DNA from: Pseudomonadota bacterium
GTDB taxonomy: Bacteria > Pseudomonadota > Gammaproteobacteria > Steroidobacterales > Steroidobacteraceae
Assembly (NCBI GenBank): GCA_021822385.1
Contig: JAKARC010000003.1
Span: 57,923-121,922, forward strand
Length of the DNA: 64,000 nucleotides
Direction of reading: 5' to 3'
Part shown: positions 1 through 58,351 of the stretch, piece by piece
Layout of the letters: each line of letters begins with the position of its first letter
How positions within the stretch are numbered: position 1 is the stretch's first letter
Position numbers and translations under genes: made by a program
The notes under the pieces: model-generated
Seen by the model: the letters and a program-made list of their open reading frames with translations, nothing else
What the model was told of the DNA's origin: nothing
Databases searched by the model: none

Positions 1-419
1 CGGCCGGCGAGACGGACTCGATCGGTGCACGCGAGCGGCCCGAGTCCATCGAGCGGCTGCGCGGCGCCATCGACGATGCGCCCGAGCAGCTGTGGCCCGA
101 CCGCCACGGTGCCGGCGCGCTCACGGGGAATGACACGCGCGTTCGGTCCGAGTCCGTGCGCATCTCCGGCCGGCATCAGGTACAGCCGGTCGCCCGCGAA
201 CCCGACGACCTCCGACTCGATGCGCGCCCCGTCGCCGGCAATCACATCGCAATAATCCCCGACCGCCGCCTGGCAGCCAGCCGCCTCGAGTGTCAGGCCC
301 ACCATGCGCGTCAGCGAGCCCTCGAGTGGCGGCGCCGTTGTGCGTTCGACCGCGAGCAGGCTGCGTTGCAGTTCCGCCCGCCAACGCGCGGCGCGGCTCG
401 ATGCCTCGGGCGCACTCAT
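1..419 (-). CDS. fliI: Flagellum-specific ATPase FliI, N-terminal part (runs off the window)
   Basis: Minus-strand translation from the ATG at 419 (MSAPEASSRAARWRAELQRSLLAVERTTAPPLEGSLTRMVGLTLEAAG...) is FliI N-terminal-like; ATG overlaps the fliH stop; gene order fliE-F-G-H-I. Confidence 0.85.
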   Translation of the reverse strand, partial: MSAPEASSRAARWRAELQRSLLAVERTTAPPLEGSLTRMVGLTLEAAGCQAAVGDYCDVIAGDGARIESEVVGFAGDRLYLMPAGDAHGLGPNARVIPRERAGTVAVGPQLLGRIVDGAAQPLDGLGPLACTDRVRLAG

Positions 420-1060
420 GCCTCGCTCCTTGCGCCCGCGCGCAATTCACCGAGCGCGTTGGCGGTGACGGCGGCAACGCGGCTCTCGAACCGTGCATCC
501 ACGCGTGAGGATTCGCTTTGCACGAGGCAGCCACCGCGCGCGAGCGTCGCATCCTCGAGGAGGGTCCAGTGCCGCTCGCCGGTGGGGGGGGTGAGGTGCT
601 CGCGCACCGCCGCGGCATCCTGCGGATGCAACAGCACCCGCACCTCGCGCGCCGCCGCCGGCAGCTGCGCCAGGGATTCACGCACGATGGCGATGATCTG
701 CGCCGGCGCCTGCTGCAGCTCGCGCCGCGCCAGCTGCTTGCCGATCGCGAGCGCGAGGCGCACCAGATCCGCCTCGACTTCGGCATCAAGATCCGCAAGC
801 GGCGCGGCCAGCGCCCCGAGCAGAGTCGCGAGCAGCCGGGCGCGCTCATCGAGCGCGGCGCGCTGCTCGCGCATGGCGTTCTCGGCGCGCGCGAGGCCGG
901 CGGCATAACCACGCGCATCGGCGGCCTGCAGTGCCTGCTGCACCTCGCTCTCGTGCTGGCGACGCGAGTCCGCGCGCCCGACCACCGGCCCGCTCACCTG
1001 CGGCAGCTGCCAGCGCTCGATACGCGCAGCGCTCCCGCGTCGCTCCATCGGCTCAGACAT
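416..1060 (-). CDS. fliH: Flagellar assembly protein FliH
   Basis: 214 aa, FliH-like C-terminal half (ALAIGKQLARRELQQAPAQIIAIVRESLAQLP), between fliG and fliI. Confidence 0.9.
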   Translation of the reverse strand: MSEPMERRGSAARIERWQLPQVSGPVVGRADSRRQHESEVQQALQAADARGYAAGLARAENAMREQRAALDERARLLATLLGALAAPLADLDAEVEADLVRLALAIGKQLARRELQQAPAQIIAIVRESLAQLPAAAREVRVLLHPQDAAAVREHLTPPTGERHWTLLEDATLARGGCLVQSESSRVDARFESRVAAVTANALGELRAGARSEA

Positions 1061-2069
1061 ACTGCTCGCCCTTGCCGCCGATGGTAATCGTGCCCGCCTC
1101 GGCGAGCTTGCGGGCCTCCTTGAGGATCTCTTTCTGCGCCGCCTCGACCTCGGAAAGTCGTACCGGGCCCTTGGCCTCGAGGTCGTCCTTCAGCATCTCC
1201 GCGGCGCGCTGCGACATGTTCTTGAACATTTTTTCCTTCAGCACCTCATCGGCGCCTTTCAATGCGATCAGCAGCTGATCGCTCGAGACCTGACGCAGCA
1301 ACTCCTGCATGCTGCGGTCGTCGAGATCGAGCAGGTTGTCGAAGACGAACACCAGCTCCTCGATGCGCGCCGCGAGCGCCCCGTCGTTCTTGGCGACCTG
1401 CTCCATCAAGGCGCTCTCCTGGCTGGGCTCGAGGAAATTGATGATGTTGGCGGCGGCTTTGGCGCCGCCCAGCACCGAGGTCTTGCTGGTCGACTTGCCG
1501 GCGAACTGCTTCTCGATGATGTCGTCGAGCTCAGAGAGCGCGGTCGGCTGCACCCCATCGAGCAAGGCCACGCGCGCGATCACCTCCGGGCGCACCGAGT
1601 CCGGCAGCATGCTCAGCACCTCGGCGGCCTGGTCCGCCTCGAGATAGGCGAGCACGATGGCGATGATCTGCGGATGTTCCTGGCGGATGAGCTCGGCGAC
1701 CGCCCGCGAATCCATCCACTTCAGGGCCTCGAGCCCCTTGCTGTTGCGGCCGATGTTGATCCGGTCGATGACGCTCTCGGCCTTGCCGGGACCGAGCGCA
1801 TCGACCAGCACCTTGCGCAGAAACTCATCCGCGCCAATGCCGACCGAGGTCTGGGTCTCGACGCTGGCGGTGAACTCGGCAATGACACTGTGCACTTCCT
1901 CACGCGAGACATTGCTGAGTTGCGCCATGGCGGCGCCGATGCGCTGCACCTCCTTGGCGCCCATGTGCTTGAGCACCTGCGCGGCCTCCTGCTCCCCGAG
2001 CGTGAGCAGCAGAATGGCGGCGCGCTCCGCGCCGCTGCGGGCCGCGGCCTTGGCACCACGCTCACTCAT
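1053..2069 (-). CDS. fliG: Flagellar motor switch protein FliG
   Basis: 338 aa; ERAAILLLTLGEQEAAQVLKHM, EHPQIIAIVLAYLEADQAAEVL, FVFDNLLDLDDRSMQELLRQV. Confidence 0.97.
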   Translation of the reverse strand: MSERGAKAAARSGAERAAILLLTLGEQEAAQVLKHMGAKEVQRIGAAMAQLSNVSREEVHSVIAEFTASVETQTSVGIGADEFLRKVLVDALGPGKAESVIDRINIGRNSKGLEALKWMDSRAVAELIRQEHPQIIAIVLAYLEADQAAEVLSMLPDSVRPEVIARVALLDGVQPTALSELDDIIEKQFAGKSTSKTSVLGGAKAAANIINFLEPSQESALMEQVAKNDGALAARIEELVFVFDNLLDLDDRSMQELLRQVSSDQLLIALKGADEVLKEKMFKNMSQRAAEMLKDDLEAKGPVRLSEVEAAQKEILKEARKLAEAGTITIGGKGEQYV

Positions 2070-3753
2070 CGTTGCCCACCCAGCCGCGCACCAGCTGCGC
2101 CACGCGCTTGGGATCCTGACCGACTATCGCGCGGGCGCTCGCGAGCTGCTGCTCATGCGAGAGCGCCTTGACGGGCGCGTCCTTCGTCGCTGCGCCGGGG
2201 CCGTCCTGCGGCCCCTCGTGCGCGACCTGCAGGGCTGCCGCCGGCGCGATCGTGGTGGCGAACAGCGAGCGCACCAGCGGCCGCAGCACCGCGAGCACGA
2301 GCGTCAGAAGGGCGATCAGGCCGACCCCGATCTTCATCATCGTGAGGAACAGCGGCCGCTCCCAGATGGGGACGCGCACGAATCGTCCCCCGGCCACGCT
2401 CGGCAGCGTGAGTGGTTCATTGACGACGCTCACACTGTCGCCACGCGCGGGATTGAAGCCCACGGCATCCTTGACCAGCTGCGTGATGCGGGCAAGCTCG
2501 GCGGCCGAGAGAGGCACCTGGGTCACCTTGCCGTTGGCGGCCTTGACCGGCCGATAGCCGACCAGCACGGCCACCGAGAGGCGGCGGACCTGTCCGGGCG
2601 GCTCGCGCGAGTAATCGAGTGTCCGGTCGATTTCATAGTTGCGGATCACGTTGCGCGAGAGCACCGGACCGCCGGCGCCGACGGTGCCCACCGGAGCGAG
2701 CGGCGCACCGGACCCGGCGGCGCGGGCCGTCGGCTGCGGTGCCGCGCCGGTCCCGCCCTTGCGCTTGCCTGAATTTGCCGCCGCGGTCTTTGCCGGCAGG
2801 GGCGCGAGCCGCGCCGGCGCCGGCGGCTCGTTCGAGAGCGAACCGGGCACCCCTGCGCCGGCGCCCGCGGCACTCGTTTCCTCGGAGATCTGCTCGCTGC
2901 GCACGATCTGGCTGTTCGGCTTGTACAGCTCCTGTGCCTGCTCGCGGCTCGCGGTGTTCAGCGACACGACCACGTCCGCGCGCACCAGGCCGGCGCCGAC
3001 GAGCGGCGTGAGCAGTGCGATGATGCGTTGCTGGTCGTCGTTCTCGATGCGCCGTGCAATGTCGTAGTTCTGTTGATCGAGGGCGTAGCGACTGTCCCCC
3101 TGGGGACCGGAGAGCAGCTGCCCGTTCTGGTCGACGACGGTCACGTGTGTCGGGGAGAGATTCGGCACGCTCGAGGCGACCAGGTTGACGATGGCCTGCA
3201 CCTGCTCGGGACCGAGAACACTGCCGGCGCGCAGCTGCACGAACACCGAGGCGCTCGCGGCGGTCTGATCGCTGATGAACACCGACTGGCGCGGTTCGGC
3301 AAGATTGACCCGTGCCGCCTCGATCTGGCGCATGCTCGCGATGGTACGGGCCAGCTCCTGCTCGAGCGCATGCTGATAGCGGACGTTCTCGATGAACTGG
3401 CTGACGCCAAAGCCGGAACCCTTGTCGATGTTGGCGAAACTGTCGCTCTGCGCCACACCCTGTCCGGCAAGCTTCAATCGCGCCGCATCGAGCTGCTCGG
3501 CGGGCACCTCGACGCCGTTGTTCGCGGCATCCAGCCGGTAGGGAATCTGCGCCGACTGCAGCGCCTGTACGACCTGCGACTCCTCGGTTGCCGACAGGTT
3601 GGCGTACAACAGGCTGTAGGTCGGCCCACGCGACCACAGCACGATCCACACACCCGCGGCCACTGCGGCGGCAATGCCGATGAGCAGCAGCAGCGGACGC
3701 AGATTGAACGGAATGGCGGGCGTGGCCCGCACGGCGGTCGATTCGGCGGCCAT
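2062..3753 (-). CDS. fliF: Flagellar MS-ring protein FliF
   Basis: 563 aa; YSLLYANLSATEESQVVQALQSAQIPYRL; two TM segments; overlaps fliG. Confidence 0.97.
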   Translation of the reverse strand: MAAESTAVRATPAIPFNLRPLLLLIGIAAAVAAGVWIVLWSRGPTYSLLYANLSATEESQVVQALQSAQIPYRLDAANNGVEVPAEQLDAARLKLAGQGVAQSDSFANIDKGSGFGVSQFIENVRYQHALEQELARTIASMRQIEAARVNLAEPRQSVFISDQTAASASVFVQLRAGSVLGPEQVQAIVNLVASSVPNLSPTHVTVVDQNGQLLSGPQGDSRYALDQQNYDIARRIENDDQQRIIALLTPLVGAGLVRADVVVSLNTASREQAQELYKPNSQIVRSEQISEETSAAGAGAGVPGSLSNEPPAPARLAPLPAKTAAANSGKRKGGTGAAPQPTARAAGSGAPLAPVGTVGAGGPVLSRNVIRNYEIDRTLDYSREPPGQVRRLSVAVLVGYRPVKAANGKVTQVPLSAAELARITQLVKDAVGFNPARGDSVSVVNEPLTLPSVAGGRFVRVPIWERPLFLTMMKIGVGLIALLTLVLAVLRPLVRSLFATTIAPAAALQVAHEGPQDGPGAATKDAPVKALSHEQQLASARAIVGQDPKRVAQLVRGWVGNDE

Positions 3754-3762
3754 GGCGTCGGA

Positions 3763-4107
3763 TTACATCTGCATGTTCATGATGTCTTGGTATGCGCTCA
3801 CCAGGCGATTGCGCACCTGGGTGAGGGCGCTGAAGGAGACGCTCGCCTTCTCCATCTGCAGCACCACCTGCGGCAGCGATACCCCGGGGGCGCCGCGTGA
3901 GAAAGCATCGGCGAGTGCGCTCGCCTTCAGTTCGGTGTGATTGACCGCATCGATGCCGCGCTTGAGGATCGTCGCGAATTCGCTCACGCCGGCGGTTCCG
4001 GTCGGTTGCGCCGCGCCGAGCGCCGCCGGCCGCGGCGCATCGACACCGGCCTGCGCGGAAATCGCGCGGATCTGGGCCAACACCTGATCGATAGCCATTT
4101 GACTCAT
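3763..4107 (-). CDS. fliE: Flagellar hook-basal body protein FliE
   Basis: 114 aa ending VVLQMEKASVSFSALTQVRNRLVSAYQDIMNMQM. Confidence 0.95.
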   Translation of the reverse strand: MSQMAIDQVLAQIRAISAQAGVDAPRPAALGAAQPTGTAGVSEFATILKRGIDAVNHTELKASALADAFSRGAPGVSLPQVVLQMEKASVSFSALTQVRNRLVSAYQDIMNMQM

Positions 4108-4118
4108 GGTGATCTCCG

Positions 4119-5147
4119 TTAAGCCGCCGGCACTTCGACGCCCGCCTCGCGCAGGCGCGCGAGTTTGTAGCGCAGCGTGCGCGGGCTGATGCCCAGCCGC
4201 TCGGCGGCCTCGCGCCGGTTGCCCTGGCCGCTCTTGAGCGCATCGAGAATCAGCTCGCGTTCGGCCTGAATCAGTGTGCCGGCGAGCGAACCGAGCGCGC
4301 CGGCATCGGCCCCGGCCGGTGGCGCCGATGCCGCGTGCGGCGCCTCGTTGGCGAGCTCGAATTGAATGTGCTCCGGCTGAATCACCGAGCCGGTGAGCAG
4401 GATCAGGGCGCGCTGCAGCAGGTTATCGAGCTCACGCACATTGCCCGGCCAGCTGTAAGTCAGCAACCGATGCGCCGCCTCGGCGCTCAAGGCCGGAATC
4501 GGGCGGCCGGCATGGCAATGGGCGGTGAGCAGCTGCATGGCGAGCGGCAGCACGTCGTCGCGGCGCAGCCGCAGCGGGGCGATCGCGAGCGGAAACACAT
4601 TCAGCCGGTAATAGAGGTCTTCGCGGAATCGACCCGCGGCGACCTCCTCACGCAGACGGCGGTTGGTGGTGGCGATGACGCGCACCTCGAGGCTGATGGC
4701 GGCGCGCCCGCCGATGCGCTCGACCTCCCGCTCCTGCAGCACGCGCAGGAGCTTCGCCTGCAGCCCGGGCGGCATCTCGGTAATCTCATCGAGCAGCAGC
4801 GTGCCGCCCTGGGCCTGCTCGAATTTGCCGGCATGCGCGGCGTGGGCGCCGGTGAAACTGCCGCGCTCGTAACCGAACAACATCGCTTCCAGCATGTTCT
4901 CGGGAATGGCTGCGCAGTTGATCGCGACGAACGGGCCCTGGGCACGCAGGGAGCGGCGGTGAATATACCGGGCAATCACCTCCTTGCCGGTGCCGGACTC
5001 GCCCCAGATGAGTACCGTGCAGTCGCTCAGCGCGACCCGACGCGCTAGGGCGAGAAGCCGCTGCGAGCTCTCCGCCCGCGCCACCGGCTCGGGTACCTCG
5101 CCGACGGCGCTGTGAATGATCGATTGTGGCTCGTACTGATCTGACAT
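4119..5147 (-). CDS. Sigma-54-dependent activator, FlrC/FleR-like, without receiver domain
   Basis: 342 aa; Walker [16 protein letters not shown] loop, Fis-type HTH ([23 protein letters not shown]); only about 45 aa precede Walker A. Confidence 0.9.
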
Positions 5148-5150
5148 CGA

Positions 5151-5192
5151 ATTCCCCTGGAGGCAGGAATGGTTCCTCTCCCTCAGGGGAAT
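5151..5192 (-). repeat. Inverted repeat ATTCCCCTG-N24-CAGGGGAAT in the leader of the flrC-like gene
   Basis: Arms 5151-5159 and 5184-5192 are exact reverse complements; the arm nearest the gene contains the Shine-Dalgarno AGGGGA upstream of the ATG at 5147. Confidence 0.8.
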
Positions 5193-5207
5193 GCAAATGC
5201 CGTGCCG
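5192..5207 (-). promoter_or_regulatory. Candidate sigma-54 promoter of the flrC-like gene
   Basis: Minus strand CGGCACG-GCAT-TTGCA, one mismatch to TGGCACG-N4-TTGCA; about 45 bp upstream of start 5147. Confidence 0.75.
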
Positions 5208-5272
5208 GCCTCATCCACTGCGCAAAGCGTGACACGACTCACAGCGGCGGCGCAGCCAGGCCGCCGCCGGCG

Positions 5273-6460
5273 TCAATCTTCCGTCACGTCGGCCGGCAGG
5301 GTCGCGATGAGATCCAGCTTGCGCAGACGCTCCACCAACGTGGTGCGGCGCAAGTTGAGCAGCCGCGCGGCCTGCGCGACCGTGCCGTTGGCGCGCGCGA
5401 GTGCCGCGCGGACCAGTGCGCGCTCGATGCCGAGCAGGTGCTCGCGCAGATCGATGCCCTCCTCGGGCAGTGTGTGCATCGGCGCCGCGCCCGCTGGCGA
5501 CACCGGCGGCGCGGGCGGCGCGGCCCGCTCGAGCAGGGCGAGCACCGCCGTCTCGGGCAGCGCTGCCGGCTCCATCGCCGCACCCGCCGCAGCCGTCGCG
5601 AGGTATTCCCAACCGCTCGGCGGCTGGTACTTGGGAGGCAGGTCCGCGACCTCGACACAGCCCCCGGCGCAGGTGATCGAGAGCCGCTCGATGAGATTGC
5701 CAAGCTCGCGCACGTTGCCGCTCCAGCGACATTCGGCCAGCGCGGCGAGCGCAGCCGCCGAAAACCGCAACGCGCCGCGACCATCGGCGGCATTGCGATC
5801 GGCAAACTCCGCCACCAGCGCCGGCAAGTCCTCGCGCCGCTCGCGCAGCGCCGGCATCTCGATCGGAAAGACGTTCAGGCGATGGAACAGATCTTCGCGG
5901 AACGTGCCGTGCGCGATCGATGCTTCGAGATTACGGTGCGTGGCCGCCACGATGCGCACGTTGCAGCGCATCGGCACATGATTGCCGACCCGTTCGAACA
6001 CGCGCTCCTGCAGCACGCGCAGCAGCTTCACTTGCATCGGCGGACTCATGTCGCCGATCTCATCGAGAAACAGCGTGCCGCCCTCGGCGATCTCGAAACG
6101 CCCCTTGCGCGCCGCGATTGCACCGGTGAACGCGCCCTTCTCGTGTCCAAACAGCTCCGACTCGAGCAATTCCGCTGGGATAGCCCCGCAATTGACCGCG
6201 ACGAACGGTCGATTGCGGCGCGGACTGAGGTCGTGAATCGCGCGTGCGGCCACCTCCTTGCCGGTGCCGGATTCCCCGAGGATCAGCACCGTCGAGTCAT
6301 GTACCGCAACCTGACGAATCAGGCCGACCACCGCGCGAATTGCCGCGGAAGTTCCGCTCGGCATGCGCGCCGTGCTCGGCTCACTGCCGCGCGCGCTGCG
6401 CGCCTCGCACCCGGCACCAGGATCGGTGTCGCTATCGCTGACCAACATCGGGCTCGTCAC
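5273..6460 (-). CDS. Sigma-54-dependent activator, FleQ/FlrA-like, lacking the N-terminal FleQ domain
   Basis: 395 aa from a [27 protein letters not shown]-terminal Fis-type HTH ([25 protein letters not shown]); in-frame upstream stop at 6497-6499. Confidence 0.88.
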
Positions 6461-6579
6461 TGCTTGGGCTCGCTTCTTCTTGGGGAGCAGCAGACCTCAC
6501 GTCTGTCGTGTTCTTCAATCCCCGGCGCCGCTACTGTCGCGTATTCGACGTATTCCTTTCTGTGATGCATCTCGGAAAT

Positions 6580-6658: not shown

Positions 6659-6676
6659 GTGTGATCCGGATCACAC
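6659..6676. promoter_or_regulatory. CRP/Vfr/Clp-type operator GTGTGATCCGGATCACAC
   Basis: Perfect 18-bp palindrome containing TGTGA-N6-TCACA, intergenic between the fleQ-like gene and fliL. Confidence 0.75.
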
Positions 6677-6733: not shown

Positions 6734-6749
6734 TGGCACGGGCATTGCA
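6734..6749 (+). promoter_or_regulatory. Sigma-54 promoter of the fliL operon
   Basis: TGGCACG-GGCA-TTGCA, full match to -24/-12 consensus, 43 bp before the fliL ATG. Confidence 0.9.
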
Positions 6750-6791: not shown

Positions 6792-7295
6792 ATGGCTACC
6801 GCTCCTGCTACCGCGCCGGCCGATGCCACGGCGGCGCCGCCGAAAAAAAAACGCGCCCTGCCGTTGTGGCTGATCATCGCGATCGCCGTCGTCGTCCTCG
6901 GCGCAGGCGCCGGCGGCTTCATGCTGCTGCATGGCGCCAAGGCCGGCGCACATGGAGCGCACAAGGCGCCCTCCGGACCGCCGCACTACCTGGCGTTGAA
7001 ACCGTTCGTGGTGAATTTCGCCCCCGGGCAGGGCGTGCGCTACCTGCAGGTGAGTCTGCAGGTGATGTCGCGCGACCCGAAGACCCTCGCGCTGCTGCAG
7101 CAGAACGACCCCGTGGTGCGCAATGACCTGCTGCTGCTGCTCAGCAATCAACGCTATGCGACGCTCGAGACCGCCGCCGGCAAGGAGAAGCTGCGCGCCG
7201 AGGTGCTCGCCGACATCCGCAAGGTGGTGCACGACGCCGGCGGCCACCCCGGCAACATCGCGGCCATCTACTTCACCAGCTTCGTGATGCAGTGA
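6792..7295 (+). CDS. fliL: Flagellar basal body-associated protein FliL
   Basis: N-terminal TM (LWLIIAIAVVVLGAGAGGF), YLALKPFVVNFAPGQGVRYLQVSLQV; followed by fliM. Confidence 0.92.
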   Translation: MATAPATAPADATAAPPKKKRALPLWLIIAIAVVVLGAGAGGFMLLHGAKAGAHGAHKAPSGPPHYLALKPFVVNFAPGQGVRYLQVSLQVMSRDPKTLALLQQNDPVVRNDLLLLLSNQRYATLETAAGKEKLRAEVLADIRKVVHDAGGHPGNIAAIYFTSFVMQ

Positions 7296-14090: not shown

Positions 14091-15251
14091 ATGAAGATCG
14101 TACGTCACACGGCCGCCGAGATGCGCCATGCGCTGCGCGCGATTCGCGAGCAGCTCGGAGAAGATGCGGTGATCCTCTCCTCACGCCGCGTGCCGAACGG
14201 CGTGGAGGTGACCGCAGCGGTCGACTTCGACGCGAGCCGAATCGAGGCACTCGAGTCCACCGCGGCCGAGCTGCCGGAACGGGTCATCGGTGCGCCGCCG
14301 CTCGCCGCCAACACCCCGGCGGCGGCCGAGGCCATGGGCCATGAGCTGAAGACGCTGCGCCGCATGCTCGAGACGCAGCTCGCGCAACTCGCCTGGAACG
14401 ATCGCACACGCCGCTCACCGGTGCACACCGAGCTGCTGCGCGAGCTGTCCGAGATCGGCATCACGCAGGAACTTGCCGATCATCTCGTCGGCCAGCTGCC
14501 CGCCGACATCGATTTGCGCCAGGGCCGGCGCTTCGCCATCGCCGGTCTGTCGCAGTACCTGCAGGTGACGGGCGACTGCTGGCTCGACAGCGGCGGGCGC
14601 ATCGCCTTCGTCGGGGCCACCGGCGTCGGCAAGACCACCGTGCTCGCCAAGCTGGCGGTGCGCTGGATACTGCGGCACGGCGCCAAAGAATTGGCGCTCG
14701 TCGCCTCGGACACCGTGCGCATCGGCGCTCAGGATCAGATGCATGCGCTCGGCCAGCTGCTCGGAGTGCCGGTGCATACCCCGGAGCGCTTTGAGACCCT
14801 GCCGCAGCTGCTCGGGCGTCTGGACCAGCACCGGCTGGTGCTGATCGACACGCCGGGGCTCAGCGTGCGCGACGCCCAGTTCGAGGCGCGCCGCGCGGTG
14901 CTCGGCGCGTGCGGCACCGCTCTGGCGCCTGCGCTGGTGCTCGCGGCCAGCACGCAAGCCGGCGCTCTGGAGGAAACCATAGAGCGCTTCGCCCCGCTGC
15001 AGCCGGCCGCCTGTGTGCTCACCAAGACCGATGAGGCGGCGAGCCTCGGCGGCGCCCTCTCGGCGCTGATCCGCGCGCGCTTGCCTATCGCCTACATCAG
15101 CGATGGCCAGCGGGTACCGGAGGATCTGCACCCGGCGCGGGCGCTTGAGCTCGTGACGCAGGCGGTGCGCCTCGCCAAAACCCGCGGTGCCGCCGCGGAC
15201 GAAGATCTATTGCGACGACGATTCGGAAAACTCGCCCATGCAAACCCCTGA
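14091..15251 (+). CDS. flhF: SRP-type GTPase FlhF (polar flagellar placement)
   Basis: 386 aa; GATGVGKTTVLAKLA, LALVASDTVRIGAQDQ, LIDTPGLS. Confidence 0.95.
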   Translation: MKIVRHTAAEMRHALRAIREQLGEDAVILSSRRVPNGVEVTAAVDFDASRIEALESTAAELPERVIGAPPLAANTPAAAEAMGHELKTLRRMLETQLAQLAWNDRTRRSPVHTELLRELSEIGITQELADHLVGQLPADIDLRQGRRFAIAGLSQYLQVTGDCWLDSGGRIAFVGATGVGKTTVLAKLAVRWILRHGAKELALVASDTVRIGAQDQMHALGQLLGVPVHTPERFETLPQLLGRLDQHRLVLIDTPGLSVRDAQFEARRAVLGACGTALAPALVLAASTQAGALEETIERFAPLQPAACVLTKTDEAASLGGALSALIRARLPIAYISDGQRVPEDLHPARALELVTQAVRLAKTRGAAADEDLLRRRFGKLAHANP

Positions 15252-16116
15252 ACTGAGCCTGATCAACAACGCGAAATTGAAGGCGCTGGCGCGGCCCGTC
15301 CAGGTGATCGCGGTCACCGGCGGCAAGGGCGGCGTGGGCAAGACCAGCGTTGCGGTCAACCTCGCCACCGCGCTCGCCCCGCGCAAGCGTGTCGTGCTCC
15401 TCGACGGCGATCTCGGCCTGGCCAACGCGGATGTGTTCCTCGGTCTCTCGCCCCGCTACACGCTCGCGCACGTGCTGAATGGGGAGCGCACGCTCGATGA
15501 GGTCCTCATCCGCGCGCCCCAGGGCTTTCACATCGTGCCGGCCGCCTCGGGGGCCGCCAACCTCGCCAACATGGGGGTTGCCGAGCACCTCGGACTGGTA
15601 CGCGCCTTCAGCAGCCTCGCCGAACCGCTCGAGGTGCTGATCGTCGATACCGCCGCCGGCATCGCGCACGGGGTCCTGCAGTTCGCCCAGGCCGCCCAGC
15701 AGGTGCTCGTGGTCATCTGCGACGAGCCGGCCTCGCTCACCGACGGCTATGCGCTCATCAAGGTGCTGAGCCGCAGCCATGGCATCACGCGCTTTCGCGT
15801 CCTCGCCAACCGGGTGCGCGCGCCGGGCGGCGGCCGCGAGCTGTTCCAGCGCTTCGAGCGGGTGACCCGCCGATTCCTCGAGGTCGCACTCGAGTTCGCC
15901 GGCGAGATTCCCGAGGACGAGTATCTCCACCGCTCGGTGCGCGAGCAGCGTCCGGTCTGTGACGCCTATCCCGGCAGCGCCGCCGCTCGGGCGTTCAAGA
16001 AACTGGCCGAAGCGGCCGATAACTGGCCAGTACCGCCCGGTCCGCGCGGCAATATCGAGTTCTTCGTCGAGCGGCTGGTGCGGCGCGGGCCCGCGCAACT
16101 GGCGGTGGTGCCATGA
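15238..16116 (+). CDS. flhG: MinD-like ATPase FlhG/FleN
   Basis: 293 codons; VTGGKGGVGKTSVAVNLATALA, LLDGDLGLANADVFLGL; downstream of flhF. Confidence 0.95.
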   Translation: MQTPELSLINNAKLKALARPVQVIAVTGGKGGVGKTSVAVNLATALAPRKRVVLLDGDLGLANADVFLGLSPRYTLAHVLNGERTLDEVLIRAPQGFHIVPAASGAANLANMGVAEHLGLVRAFSSLAEPLEVLIVDTAAGIAHGVLQFAQAAQQVLVVICDEPASLTDGYALIKVLSRSHGITRFRVLANRVRAPGGGRELFQRFERVTRRFLEVALEFAGEIPEDEYLHRSVREQRPVCDAYPGSAAARAFKKLAEAADNWPVPPGPRGNIEFFVERLVRRGPAQLAVVP

Positions 16117-16865
16117 ACGCGGCAAGCGCTTACAGCGAGGTGCGCGGCTGCGCCGATACGCCCGCGGCCGCCGACCTGGTGACGCGGCACGCGGAGCTGG
16201 TCAAGCGCATCGCCTATCACCTCGCCGGGCGGCTGCCGCCCTCGGTGGAGATCGACGATTTGATGCAGGCGGGAATGCTCGGATTGCTGGAGGCAGCCTC
16301 GAACTACGCGGCGGGCCGGGGCGCGAGCTTCGAGACCTACGCCGGCATCCGCATCCGCGGCGCGATGATCGACGCGCTGCGCAAGCTCGACTGGGCGCCG
16401 CGCTCGGTGCATCGCAAGGCGCGGGCCGTGGCCGCGGCGGTGCAGGAAATCGAGCGGCGCACCGGCCGGGACGCGCGCGATGCGGAAATCGCCGCCGCTC
16501 TCGGCGTCGAACTCGCCGAGTATCACGCGATCGTGCACGACGCGGCCAGTTGCCGGCTTGCGGCGCTGGATGATGCGGCGGTGACCATCGAGGGCGACGC
16601 CGATCCGTTTCTCGAGACCGCCGACGAGGAATTCAAGCAGGCGTTGGCGGTGGCCATCGACGGACTGCCGGAACGGGAGAAGCTGGTGATGTCGCTTTAC
16701 TACAGCGAGGGCCTCAACTTGAAGGAGATCGGGGCGGTGCTGCGCGTGACCGAATCGCGCGCCTGTCAGCTGCACGGTCAGGCGCTCGTGCGCTTGAAGG
16801 CGCGCCTCGGCGCCTGGCGCGAGACGCCCGCGGCGAGCGGCGCGGCGCGGCGAGGTCGGCAGTGA
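16113..16865 (+). CDS. fliA: RNA polymerase sigma-28 factor FliA
   Basis: 250 aa; [90 protein letters not shown]. Confidence 0.97.
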
Positions 16866-34707: not shown

Positions 34708-35052
34708 TCAGCCTCCCCCGATCTGGGCCAGCATCTGCTCGGATTGCAGCAGGCGGTCGGCAACGACACCCGGCTGCACGGTGTAACTGCCCGAGTCGAT
34801 GGCGGAGCGCAAGTGCGCGACTCTCGCGTCATTGACGGCCGGCAAACTCTGCAAATGCTGCGCGATCGTGGCGAGCAGGCTGGCCGAGCCGGTGATCTGC
34901 ACCTGCGAATCACCCGCGCTTGCCGCGGCCGAGTCCGACGCCGCCGTGCCTGCAGCGGCCGCCGCGGCGGCACCGGCCTTACCGGACATCGGCGCGCTGA
35001 CGCCAACGACCGACGCAGATCCATTCAACCGGTTGATTTCGCTCGGCATCAC
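34708..35052 (-). CDS. flgM: Anti-sigma-28 factor FlgM
   Basis: 114 aa; SEINRLNG N-terminus and VNDARVAHLRSAIDSGSYTVQPGVVADRLLQSEQML. Confidence 0.93.
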   Translation of the reverse strand: MMPSEINRLNGSASVVGVSAPMSGKAGAAAAAAAGTAASDSAAASAGDSQVQITGSASLLATIAQHLQSLPAVNDARVAHLRSAIDSGSYTVQPGVVADRLLQSEQMLAQIGGG

Positions 35053-35841: not shown

Positions 35842-35857
35842 TGCAAAAGCCGGGCCA
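35842..35857 (-). promoter_or_regulatory. Possible sigma-54 promoter of flgA
   Basis: Minus strand TGGCCCG-GCTT-TTGCA, one mismatch; predicted +1 only about 2 nt from the ATG at 35829. Confidence 0.4.
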
Positions 35858-35983
35858 CGCCACCCCTACCGGGCACCCCGGCCAGCCCGCGCCGGCAGAC
35901 CTTTGCCGCGGCACTGCGCACGCCGTCACATTCTGGAGCCGAGGGGCGGCGTCAAACACGCCCGAAACATCTCGTTTTTGCAT

Positions 35984-35999
35984 TGGCACGCCTCTTGCT
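35984..35999 (+). promoter_or_regulatory. Sigma-54 promoter of the flgB operon
   Basis: TGGCACG-CCTC-TTGCT, consensus match, 39 bp before the flgB ATG. Confidence 0.88.
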
Positions 36000-36037: not shown

Positions 36038-36475
36038 ATGCCGCTCAACCTCAACGCATATCTTGGCGTGCAACCCGATGCGCTGCAGGTCTTCGCGCAG
36101 CGCGCGCAGGTGCTCGCCGCCAACCTCGCCAACGCCGACACGCCCGGCTACAAGGCGCGCGACATCGACTTCCGTGCCGCGCTCGCCGCGCTCGACCCGC
36201 CCGGCGGCACCGACTCCGCGGCCCACCCCGGTGGCAGCGTCACATTAAAGACGACCAGCCCCCTCGATGTCACCGCAGCGAACACGACCGGCGGCCTCTC
36301 GACCGCGCAATTCCTGCGCTACCGCATTCCACTGGTGCCCTCGCTCGACGGCAACACCGTCAGCGCGCAGATGGAAGAGGCGAAATTCGCCGAGAACACC
36401 GTGCGCTACCAGGCGGCGCTCACCTTCCTGCAGCAGAAATTCGCCCAGCTCACGATGGCCATCACCGGCCAGTAA
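36038..36475 (+). CDS. flgB: Rod protein FlgB
   Basis: VFAQRAQVLAANLANADTPGYKARDIDF. Confidence 0.96.
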   Translation: MPLNLNAYLGVQPDALQVFAQRAQVLAANLANADTPGYKARDIDFRAALAALDPPGGTDSAAHPGGSVTLKTTSPLDVTAANTTGGLSTAQFLRYRIPLVPSLDGNTVSAQMEEAKFAENTVRYQAALTFLQQKFAQLTMAITGQ

Positions 36476-57106: not shown

Positions 57107-58351
57107 ATGACGCTGCGCCTGCGCGTCATCAGCGGTCAGCGACGGCATCTGTCGGGGGGCGACAGTGCGCAATTCGGTCGCGACGGCGGCACCATCGGGC
57201 GCTCGCCCGACAATGATTGGGTGCTGCCCGACCCGCACCGCTACGTCTCGGCGCATCACGCGCGCATCGGCTGGCGCAATGGCCACTTTTATCTCGAGGA
57301 TCTGAGCACCAACGGGGTGTACGTGAACGACCGCGCCGAGCCGCTCGCCGAGTGCGGTCCGGAGGGTTACCGTCTGCGCGACGGGGACGTGCTGCGCCTC
57401 GGGGAATATCAGATCGGCGTGTCGCTCGAGGACAGCGCGGCGGACTCCGCGGCGCTGCCCTCGCGCATCATGGCCGTGCAGCCGCTGCGGACGGCGGAAC
57501 CGGATATTGGCGCGGCACTCGATCTCGAGGATCTGCTCATCGTCGATCCCACCTACAGTGGTCAGGGGTCGCCGGCGTCAGTCCTCGATCCGCAAGACGC
57601 GCCGTCGCAGCCGGAAATGGCGATCGCATCAGTTGCAGCATCTGCGCCGGCCGAGCCGCGCGCCCCGCGGCGCGCCGATGAGACCTTGTCGCGGCGGGTG
57701 GGCCGGGGGGCGCGCGCCAAGGCCACCGAGCCTGCACACCCGGCGTCGGTCGATTCGGCCTGGGAGGCCTTCTGCCGCGGTGCCGGTCTCGATCCGCGGC
57801 GCATGCCGGCGCAGGCGCCGGTATTGCACCTGGCCGGGCGGCTGTTGCGCGAAGCGCTGGTGGGACTGAAGGATCTCGAGCGCGCGCGCAGCCAGACCCG
57901 TGAGCGCTTCCACATTCAGGTGCCGCCGCCGGAACCCGGTGTCCCGCTGCTCGGGCAACTGACCGTGGAGGAGCTGCTGCTCGCGCTCTGCGCCCAGCAC
58001 GAGGCGCACGAAATCGATGCCGTGCGCTGGCTGCGCGAGCGTCACGACGAGGTCAAGGCCCATGAGGCGGCGCTCGTGCAGGCCCTGCGCGCGGCGTTCA
58101 TCGAATTCCTCGGCCGCCTCGATCCCCACGAACTCGAGACACGCTTTGCCTCCGGACGCAACGGCGCACCGGATGCGGCCCAGGCCTGGGGGCTGTTCAC
58201 GAGCTTTTACCGGAATCTGCTCGATCGCCCGGCGGACCACCTGCCGCATACCTTTGTCGAGGCCTTTGCCGCAGCCTACAAGGAGTCCCTGCATCCGCGC
58301 ACCCTCGACATGCCGCGCAGCGTGCGGCCGCAGCGCGCACAGGACGGATAG
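57107..58351 (+). CDS. FHA-domain protein of the T6SS TagH/Fha type
   Basis: N-terminal FHA (IGRSPDNDWVLPDPHRYVSAHHARIGWRNGHFYLEDLSTNGVYVN); C-terminal TagH-like region (FIEFLGRLDPHELETRF...FYRNLLDRPADHLPHTFVEAFAAAYKESLHPR). Confidence 0.82.
   Translation: MTLRLRVISGQRRHLSGGDSAQFGRDGGTIGRSPDNDWVLPDPHRYVSAHHARIGWRNGHFYLEDLSTNGVYVNDRAEPLAECGPEGYRLRDGDVLRLGEYQIGVSLEDSAADSAALPSRIMAVQPLRTAEPDIGAALDLEDLLIVDPTYSGQGSPASVLDPQDAPSQPEMAIASVAASAPAEPRAPRRADETLSRRVGRGARAKATEPAHPASVDSAWEAFCRGAGLDPRRMPAQAPVLHLAGRLLREALVGLKDLERARSQTRERFHIQVPPPEPGVPLLGQLTVEELLLALCAQHEAHEIDAVRWLRERHDEVKAHEAALVQALRAAFIEFLGRLDPHELETRFASGRNGAPDAAQAWGLFTSFYRNLLDRPADHLPHTFVEAFAAAYKESLHPRTLDMPRSVRPQRAQDG

Follow-up and report, generated by a model that had tools for sequence, protein, structure and literature searches.

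We examined a 64,000-nucleotide stretch of a Steroidobacteraceae genome (contig JAKARC010000003.1, C90 in our numbering, positions 57923–121922; hereafter "the window"), whose flagellar genes include two σ54-dependent transcriptional activators, one of the FleQ/FlrA type and one of the FlrC/FleR type. We think it quite probable, from comparison with related genomes, that they form a FleQ/FlrBC-type polar flagellar cascade from which the FlrB kinase, the FlrC receiver and the FleQ N-terminal domain are missing and in which both transcription tiers are kept. Judged by sequence, these losses are real, inherited and repeated in evolution. The two activators, each reduced to an AAA+ domain and a helix-turn-helix (HTH), are:

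4119–5147, minus strand: FlrC/FleR-type σ54 activator, AAA+ and HTH_8, no receiver domain, GSFTGA loop
5273–6460, minus strand: FleQ/FlrA-type σ54 activator, AAA+ and Fis-type HTH, no N-terminal FleQ domain

Two short activators and a missing kinase

The FlrC-type reading frame encodes 342 residues, 48 of which lie ahead of Walker A (GESGTGKE); the short N-terminus of the original prediction thus stands, and its count of about 45 is corrected. Its full Pfam domains are Sigma54_activat, the AAA lid and HTH_8 (E = 4.9e-14) only, and Pfam found in it no Response_reg domain to serve as phosphoacceptor receiver. Both its AAA+ and HTH sequence and its position before fliE place it in the FlrC/FleR family, and its closest solved structure is FlrC (4qhs, E = 1e-93). 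The retained HTH, AAA+ residues and operator (below) argue that it is no relic and that it would still activate flgB.

The FleQ-type frame encodes 395 residues, with 61 before Walker A if translation starts at the GTG and 57 if it starts at the ATG at 6448, which aligns with the start conserved in the genus and is probably the true one; here too the foreseen short N-terminus holds, and the expected length of about 55 gives way to these values. The in-frame stop reported at 6497–6499 is indeed there, with further in-frame stops upstream. Sigma54_activat, the AAA lid and HTH_8 are again the only full Pfam domains, and the family-defining N-terminal FleQ domain (PF06490) was not found in this protein by Pfam. 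Its closest solved structure is FleQ (8p53, E = 8e-109) and it clusters with FleQ orthologs in a FleQ tree, so we read it as FleQ-like in AAA+ and HTH, minus one family-defining domain. Its AAA+ catalytic residues are intact (R260, R300 and R363 are invariant). With regard to possible binding by FlhG/FleN, flhG is present in the window and I374 is conserved. For both activators, homology to the solved FleQ and FlrC structures is enough to settle the fold.

The gap between the two genes is 125 bp (5148–5272), as predicted, and holds no kinase gene. No FlrB/FleS ortholog, the cognate kinase, was found in any of 58 genomes of the genus (g1), in line with the prediction; the best FlrB matches in them (E = 2e-31, about 30–36% identity) cover largely the kinase domain, many in proteins of more than 700 residues, and look like generic kinases, and FlrB proteins of sister families score above 200 bits against FlrB references. 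A full-length FleQ or FlrC hidden elsewhere was considered and rejected: every σ54 activator found in the window genome was inspected, and the others (GlrR-, NtrC-, PilR- and NtrX-like proteins, a PAS-type protein and one short unrelated protein) do not fit. The assembly (2.6 Mb) is about 85% complete, yet near-complete members of the genus agree with it in having no full-length FleQ or FlrC and no FlrB/FleS. None of the PF06490 matches listed in the genus belongs to a FleQ-like activator, and most lie in short open frames. The window genome has one rpoN gene. One NtrX-like regulator (L008, G000:C67:106680) has Arg for the Walker A Lys (GEPGTGRE) and no recognizable GAFTGA loop.

The FleQ-type protein is present in more than 20 other genomes of the genus at 69–82% identity, Walker A lying about 57–63 residues after the conserved start, and in nearly all of them its gene is followed by an FlrC-type gene in which about 47–53 residues (in two cases somewhat more) precede Walker A. 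Wherever the pair was found in the genus both proteins are short, and the short forms recur in much of the family, so that the proposed reduction of both activators to AAA+ plus HTH is borne out by Pfam domains and by recurrence alike. A sequencing frameshift or misassembly, which had been a possible objection, is ruled out by the same short forms, AAA+ and HTH intact, in more than 20 separate genomes. More broadly, that the truncations reflect artefact or decay of a dying flagellar locus is hardly credible: the window assembly is incomplete and 30 of the 58 genus genomes (some of them incomplete) have no flgB match, but the short forms are shared at about 70–80% FleQ identity, promoters and operators are conserved, and the window otherwise appears to hold a full set of flagellar genes. 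Given the genomes without a flgB match, motility looks patchy within the genus.

Losses across the order

We scored 60 loci from within the order, plus 18 named ones, for the FleQ N-terminal domain, FlrB, the FlrC receiver and fliE. PF06490 was rejected as the sole test for the FleQ domain because of its low sensitivity: it fails on G061 and G073, both of which are detected by a profile built locally (E = 1e-38 or better). We therefore used the local profile, which splits the proteins cleanly (E about 1e-27 or lower, or nothing convincing), together with the room available before Walker A. Where a locus has both fliE and an FlrC gene, FlrB and receiver are present together in 27 cases and absent together in 24, with a single exception; loss of the kinase is thus accompanied by decay of the receiver. 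The exception, G114 (L192:4056–5459, family f7), has no FlrB nearby and an FlrC whose receiver fold is recognizable, with Glu in place of the phosphoacceptor Asp (SELAG versus SDIQM); it is perhaps a natural intermediate in a fixed active form, and in its relative G146 the receiver is gone.

On a tree of FliF and FliG, kinase loss takes three changes (two of them forced by supported branches) and FleQ domain presence eight; on the FleQ tree the domain needs at least five. Loss of the FleQ domain is repeated, and separate from that of kinase and receiver: a short FleQ accompanies FlrB and a full FlrC in some families (for example Ww579 and L047), and a full FleQ accompanies a short FlrC in families f11 and f2. 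Within the window's own family, genera g20 and g21 retain the FleQ domain and g23 has lost FlrC altogether, and the window genus is therefore one stage in a series of losses. Among named records, the FliF/FliG tree places the window's flagellar proteins nearest Dyella and Stenotrophomonas.

Several loci add detail. Two family members (L163 and L166, in G109 and G169) have no FlrC, and G109 keeps an 81-residue remnant of it. G182 has two flagellar clusters (L205 and L160), both with short FleQ and short FlrC, and its second cluster type, found also at L204 (G209), is a divergent one that branches basally in the FleQ tree. A metagenome-assembled genome named outside the order (L064, Pseudomonadales bacterium MH-Pat-SR) also has the doubly reduced arrangement on a long branch, possibly by independent reduction. 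Loci L181, L185 and L187 and those of family f15 carry short FleQ-like activators away from fliE, in some genomes alongside a full flagellar FleQ; they form an apparently unstudied, separate FleQ-like group.

Promoters, operators and locus layout

In order of transcription the minus strand carries the FleQ-type gene, the 125 bp gap, the FlrC-type gene, 11 bp and then fliE, fliF, fliG and fliH, which is the Vibrio/Pseudomonas order flrA-flrB-flrC-fliE minus flrB. The fliL-M-N...flhB-flhA-flhF-flhG-fliA genes run in the opposite direction, and farther right lie flgB and more flg genes, an flgM-like gene, flagellin and fliD (several of these names were assigned by eye). The regulatory sites and flanking genes are:

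5192–5207, minus strand: σ54 −24/−12 promoter of flrC, CGGCACGGCATTTGCA, conserved in the genus
5228–5243: palindrome TGTGAGTCGTGTCACG, a GTGA-N6-TCAC motif upstream of the promoter of flrC; across the genus its half-sites are conserved and its core varies
6660–6675: perfect palindrome TGTGATCCGGATCACA between fleQ and fliL, a CRP/Vfr-like or activator site
6734–6749, plus strand: σ54 promoter of fliL, TGGCACGGGCATTGCA
35842–35857, minus strand: σ54 promoter-like site of flgA
35893–35908: palindrome CGGCAGACCTTTGCCG, proposed FlrC operator of flgB
35984–35999, plus strand: σ54 promoter of flgB, TGGCACGCCTCTTGCT
416–1060, minus strand: fliH
1053–2069, minus strand: fliG
2062–3753, minus strand: fliF
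3763–4107, minus strand: fliE, in the same operon as flrC
6792–7295, plus strand: fliL, first gene of the divergent fliLMN... operon
14091–15251, plus strand: flhF
15238–16116, plus strand: flhG/fleN, possible regulator of the FleQ-type protein
16113–16865, plus strand: fliA (σ28)
34708–35052, minus strand: flgM-like anti-σ28 gene, assigned by eye
36038–36475, plus strand: flgB, first gene of the rod/hook operon

The flrC, fliL, flgB and flgA genes are each preceded by a σ54 −24/−12 site with at most one mismatch. In total, loose σ54 matches occur in the window about as often as chance would give, and the case for these promoters therefore rests on position and conservation: in the genus the site is conserved at flrC in 8 of 8 aligned members, at fliL in 6 of 8 and at flgB in 20 of 20 readable genomes.

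Upstream of flgB, two palindromes stand in the genus at fixed distances from the −24 element, CGGCAR-N4-YTGCCG at −91 and GTGA-N6-TCAC at −68. Outside the genus, the CGGCAA palindrome also lies near flgB in 19 of 21 loci that carry FlrC, with or without its receiver, scoring better there than shuffled sequence (p < 0.03). It is absent at flgB from the four sampled genomes that lack FlrC beside fliE (two of g23, Dyella and Stenotrophomonas), three of which have a FleQ-box-like GTCAAYAAA in its place. The flgB promoters of the FlrC-less family members at L163 and L166 have GTCAATAAA, which resembles the FleQ box consensus GTCaNTAAAtTGAC (PMC6120874), and Dyella has GTCAACAAATTGAC at flgB. This correlation between palindrome and FlrC, which spans few FlrC-less lineages, makes CGGCAA-N4-TTGCCG our proposed FlrC operator; in a limited search of the literature, no previous account turned up of such an operator or of an FlrC lacking its receiver.

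The GTGA-N6-TCAC palindrome, which also precedes flrC and fliL in the genus, matches at no fewer than 7 of 8 bases upstream of flgB in 19 of 20 genus genomes, with a widely varying core; the left half of the window's flgB site is degenerate, and the window's TGTGA-N6-TCACA box at 6660–6675 is conserved in the genus. The motif was considered as a candidate FleQ operator, but it resembles the CRP/Vfr consensus and may instead be bound by CRP: L224 encodes a CRP/Vfr-like protein, and an exact CRP-consensus palindrome was present in every genus genome searched, including ones without a flgB match.

A probable cascade without its kinase

From the domain losses, their inheritance, the σ54 promoter sequences and the flgB palindrome that tracks FlrC, all observed directly, we infer the following activation steps. 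FleQ with σ54 RNA polymerase would activate flrC-fliEFGH and fliL-flhF-flhG-fliA; freshly synthesized FlrC, needing no phosphorylation to be active, would bind CGGCAA-N4-TTGCCG and activate flgB and the rod/hook genes. The simplest model is thus a feed-forward chain in which FleQ makes FlrC and FlrC makes rod and hook, and the suggestion that one activator acts through the other fits the layout found here, in which a σ54 promoter precedes flrC and flrC heads the fliEFGH operon. The timing and amount of FlrC synthesis would take the place of FlrB sensing of the MS (membrane and supramembrane) ring and export apparatus as the early rod/hook check, control of FleQ would fall to transcription of its own gene and to partners that act on its AAA+ or HTH domains, FlhG being the likeliest, and the late FlgM/FliA checkpoint seems to be retained. 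We give roughly even chances to the fuller account, in which the checkpoint was dropped, FlrC became a phosphorylation-independent DNA-binder with its old operator, the FleQ N-terminal domain was dispensable and lost several times, and gene order depends on FlrC synthesis and FlhG.

Several points weigh against the cascade as we read it. In Pseudomonas aeruginosa the FleQ N-terminal domain dimerizes and touches the AAA+ domain, and both the domain and the contact are required for activity (PMC10723142), so a FleQ that lacks this domain must act in another way; the FlrC receiver could in principle be an activating part, leaving the stub weak. FlrC-less Stenotrophomonas shows no FleQ box at flgB, the sampled FlrC-less genomes represent only two or three lineages, and the tree offers too few independent pairs for a paired test to reach significance.

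Of the other explanations, the strongest is that FleQ and FlrC form a hetero-oligomer like FleQ/FleT of Rhodobacter (Cereibacter) sphaeroides, with FleQ alone serving class II promoters and a FleQ-FlrC complex class III. There too both activators are without N-terminal domains, and the second heads fliEFGHIJ and depends on the first (PMC7277832, PMC9542535, PMC11999139); in the genus, GTGA-N6-TCAC also stands at its fixed distance from flgB. We consider such a complex unlikely, however, since FlrC keeps its HTH and its own flgB operator, which vanishes when flrC is lost, and FleQ boxes were not seen beside the CGGCAA operator in most genomes. It is less likely still that cyclic di-GMP (c-di-GMP) bound by the FleQ AAA+ domain replaced the N-terminal domain as main input, as the original prediction had suggested. 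Equivalents of R144, R185, E330 and R334 are kept in the window protein, but of the P. aeruginosa pocket (LFRS, R185, N186 and ExxxR) only R144 is left of LFRS and N186 is gone; each of the nine genus sequences aligned has substitutions at L142, F143, S145 and N186, and LFRS is absent throughout the surrounding clade, even from genomes that keep the FleQ N-terminal domain. The kept residues have ATP-binding roles too or are only partly conserved, and the remaining pocket arginines bind ATP in P. aeruginosa FleQ (PMC10723142). With LFRS and N186 lost, canonical c-di-GMP control through this pocket is doubtful. Control of either stub in trans by an unlinked histidine kinase or receiver-only protein is very improbable: these genomes have several response-regulator and kinase genes, but neither activator has a phosphoacceptor domain and no FlrB-like kinase was found in the genus.

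Sensing of the half-built flagellum by FlrB/FleS is regarded as a broadly conserved checkpoint in polar flagellates. Under the kinase-free cascade that we prefer, both this checkpoint and the FleQ N-terminal domain are missing from organisms with seemingly intact flagellar genes and promoters, and one order holds successive stages: the full system, kinase gone with receiver decaying, receiver gone, and FlrC gone. Such natural deletions make the order of loss and the value of the checkpoint testable, and the proposed FlrC operator is a tool for tracing FlrC regulons.

The FlrA-FlrB-FlrC system of Vibrio and the FleQ-FleS-FleR system of Pseudomonas share with the window homologous activators, gene order apart from the kinase, σ54 promoters and flgB as second-tier target (PMC7064773, PMC12607845), but have the kinase, receiver and FleQ N-terminal domain that are absent here. 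Activation of FlrC/FleR through FlrB/FleS depends, in V. cholerae and P. aeruginosa, on the MS ring, the rotor and the export apparatus (PMC7064773, PMC12607845); with the kinase, receiver and FleQ N-terminal domain gone, the FlrB checkpoint cannot operate here in the same way. The FleQ-only (Xanthomonas-type) Dyella and Stenotrophomonas have FliF and FliG that group with the window clade and no FlrB at the locus; they differ in having full-length FleQ, no FlrC between fleQ and fliE, and flgB without the CGGCAA palindrome. PspF and HrpR/HrpS are likewise σ54 activators of AAA+ plus HTH with no signal-receiving domain (PMC3162934, PMC9542535), but belong to other families and regulons.

The closest precedent is R. 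sphaeroides Fla1 FleQ/FleT, a system whose logic is shared, with variation, by the present one. Fla1 likewise has two σ54 activators without N-terminal regulatory domains, the first driving the operon of the second, and fleT shares that operon with fliEFGHIJ (PMC7277832, PMC9542535, PMC11999139); here too both N-terminal domains are gone and the second gene heads fliEFGH behind a σ54 promoter. The published descriptions of Fla1 consulted here mention no FlrB-type kinase (PMC7277832, PMC9542535, PMC11999139). A search of a plasmid collection for an R. sphaeroides-like pair returned FleR and other σ54 activators and no FleT. FleT itself has no HTH and acts as a complex with FleQ (PMC7277832, PMC9542535, PMC11999139), whereas the second activator here is a receiver-less FlrC type in gammaproteobacteria, does not lack a DNA-binding domain as FleT does, and keeps HTH_8 and a dedicated, proposed operator at flgB.
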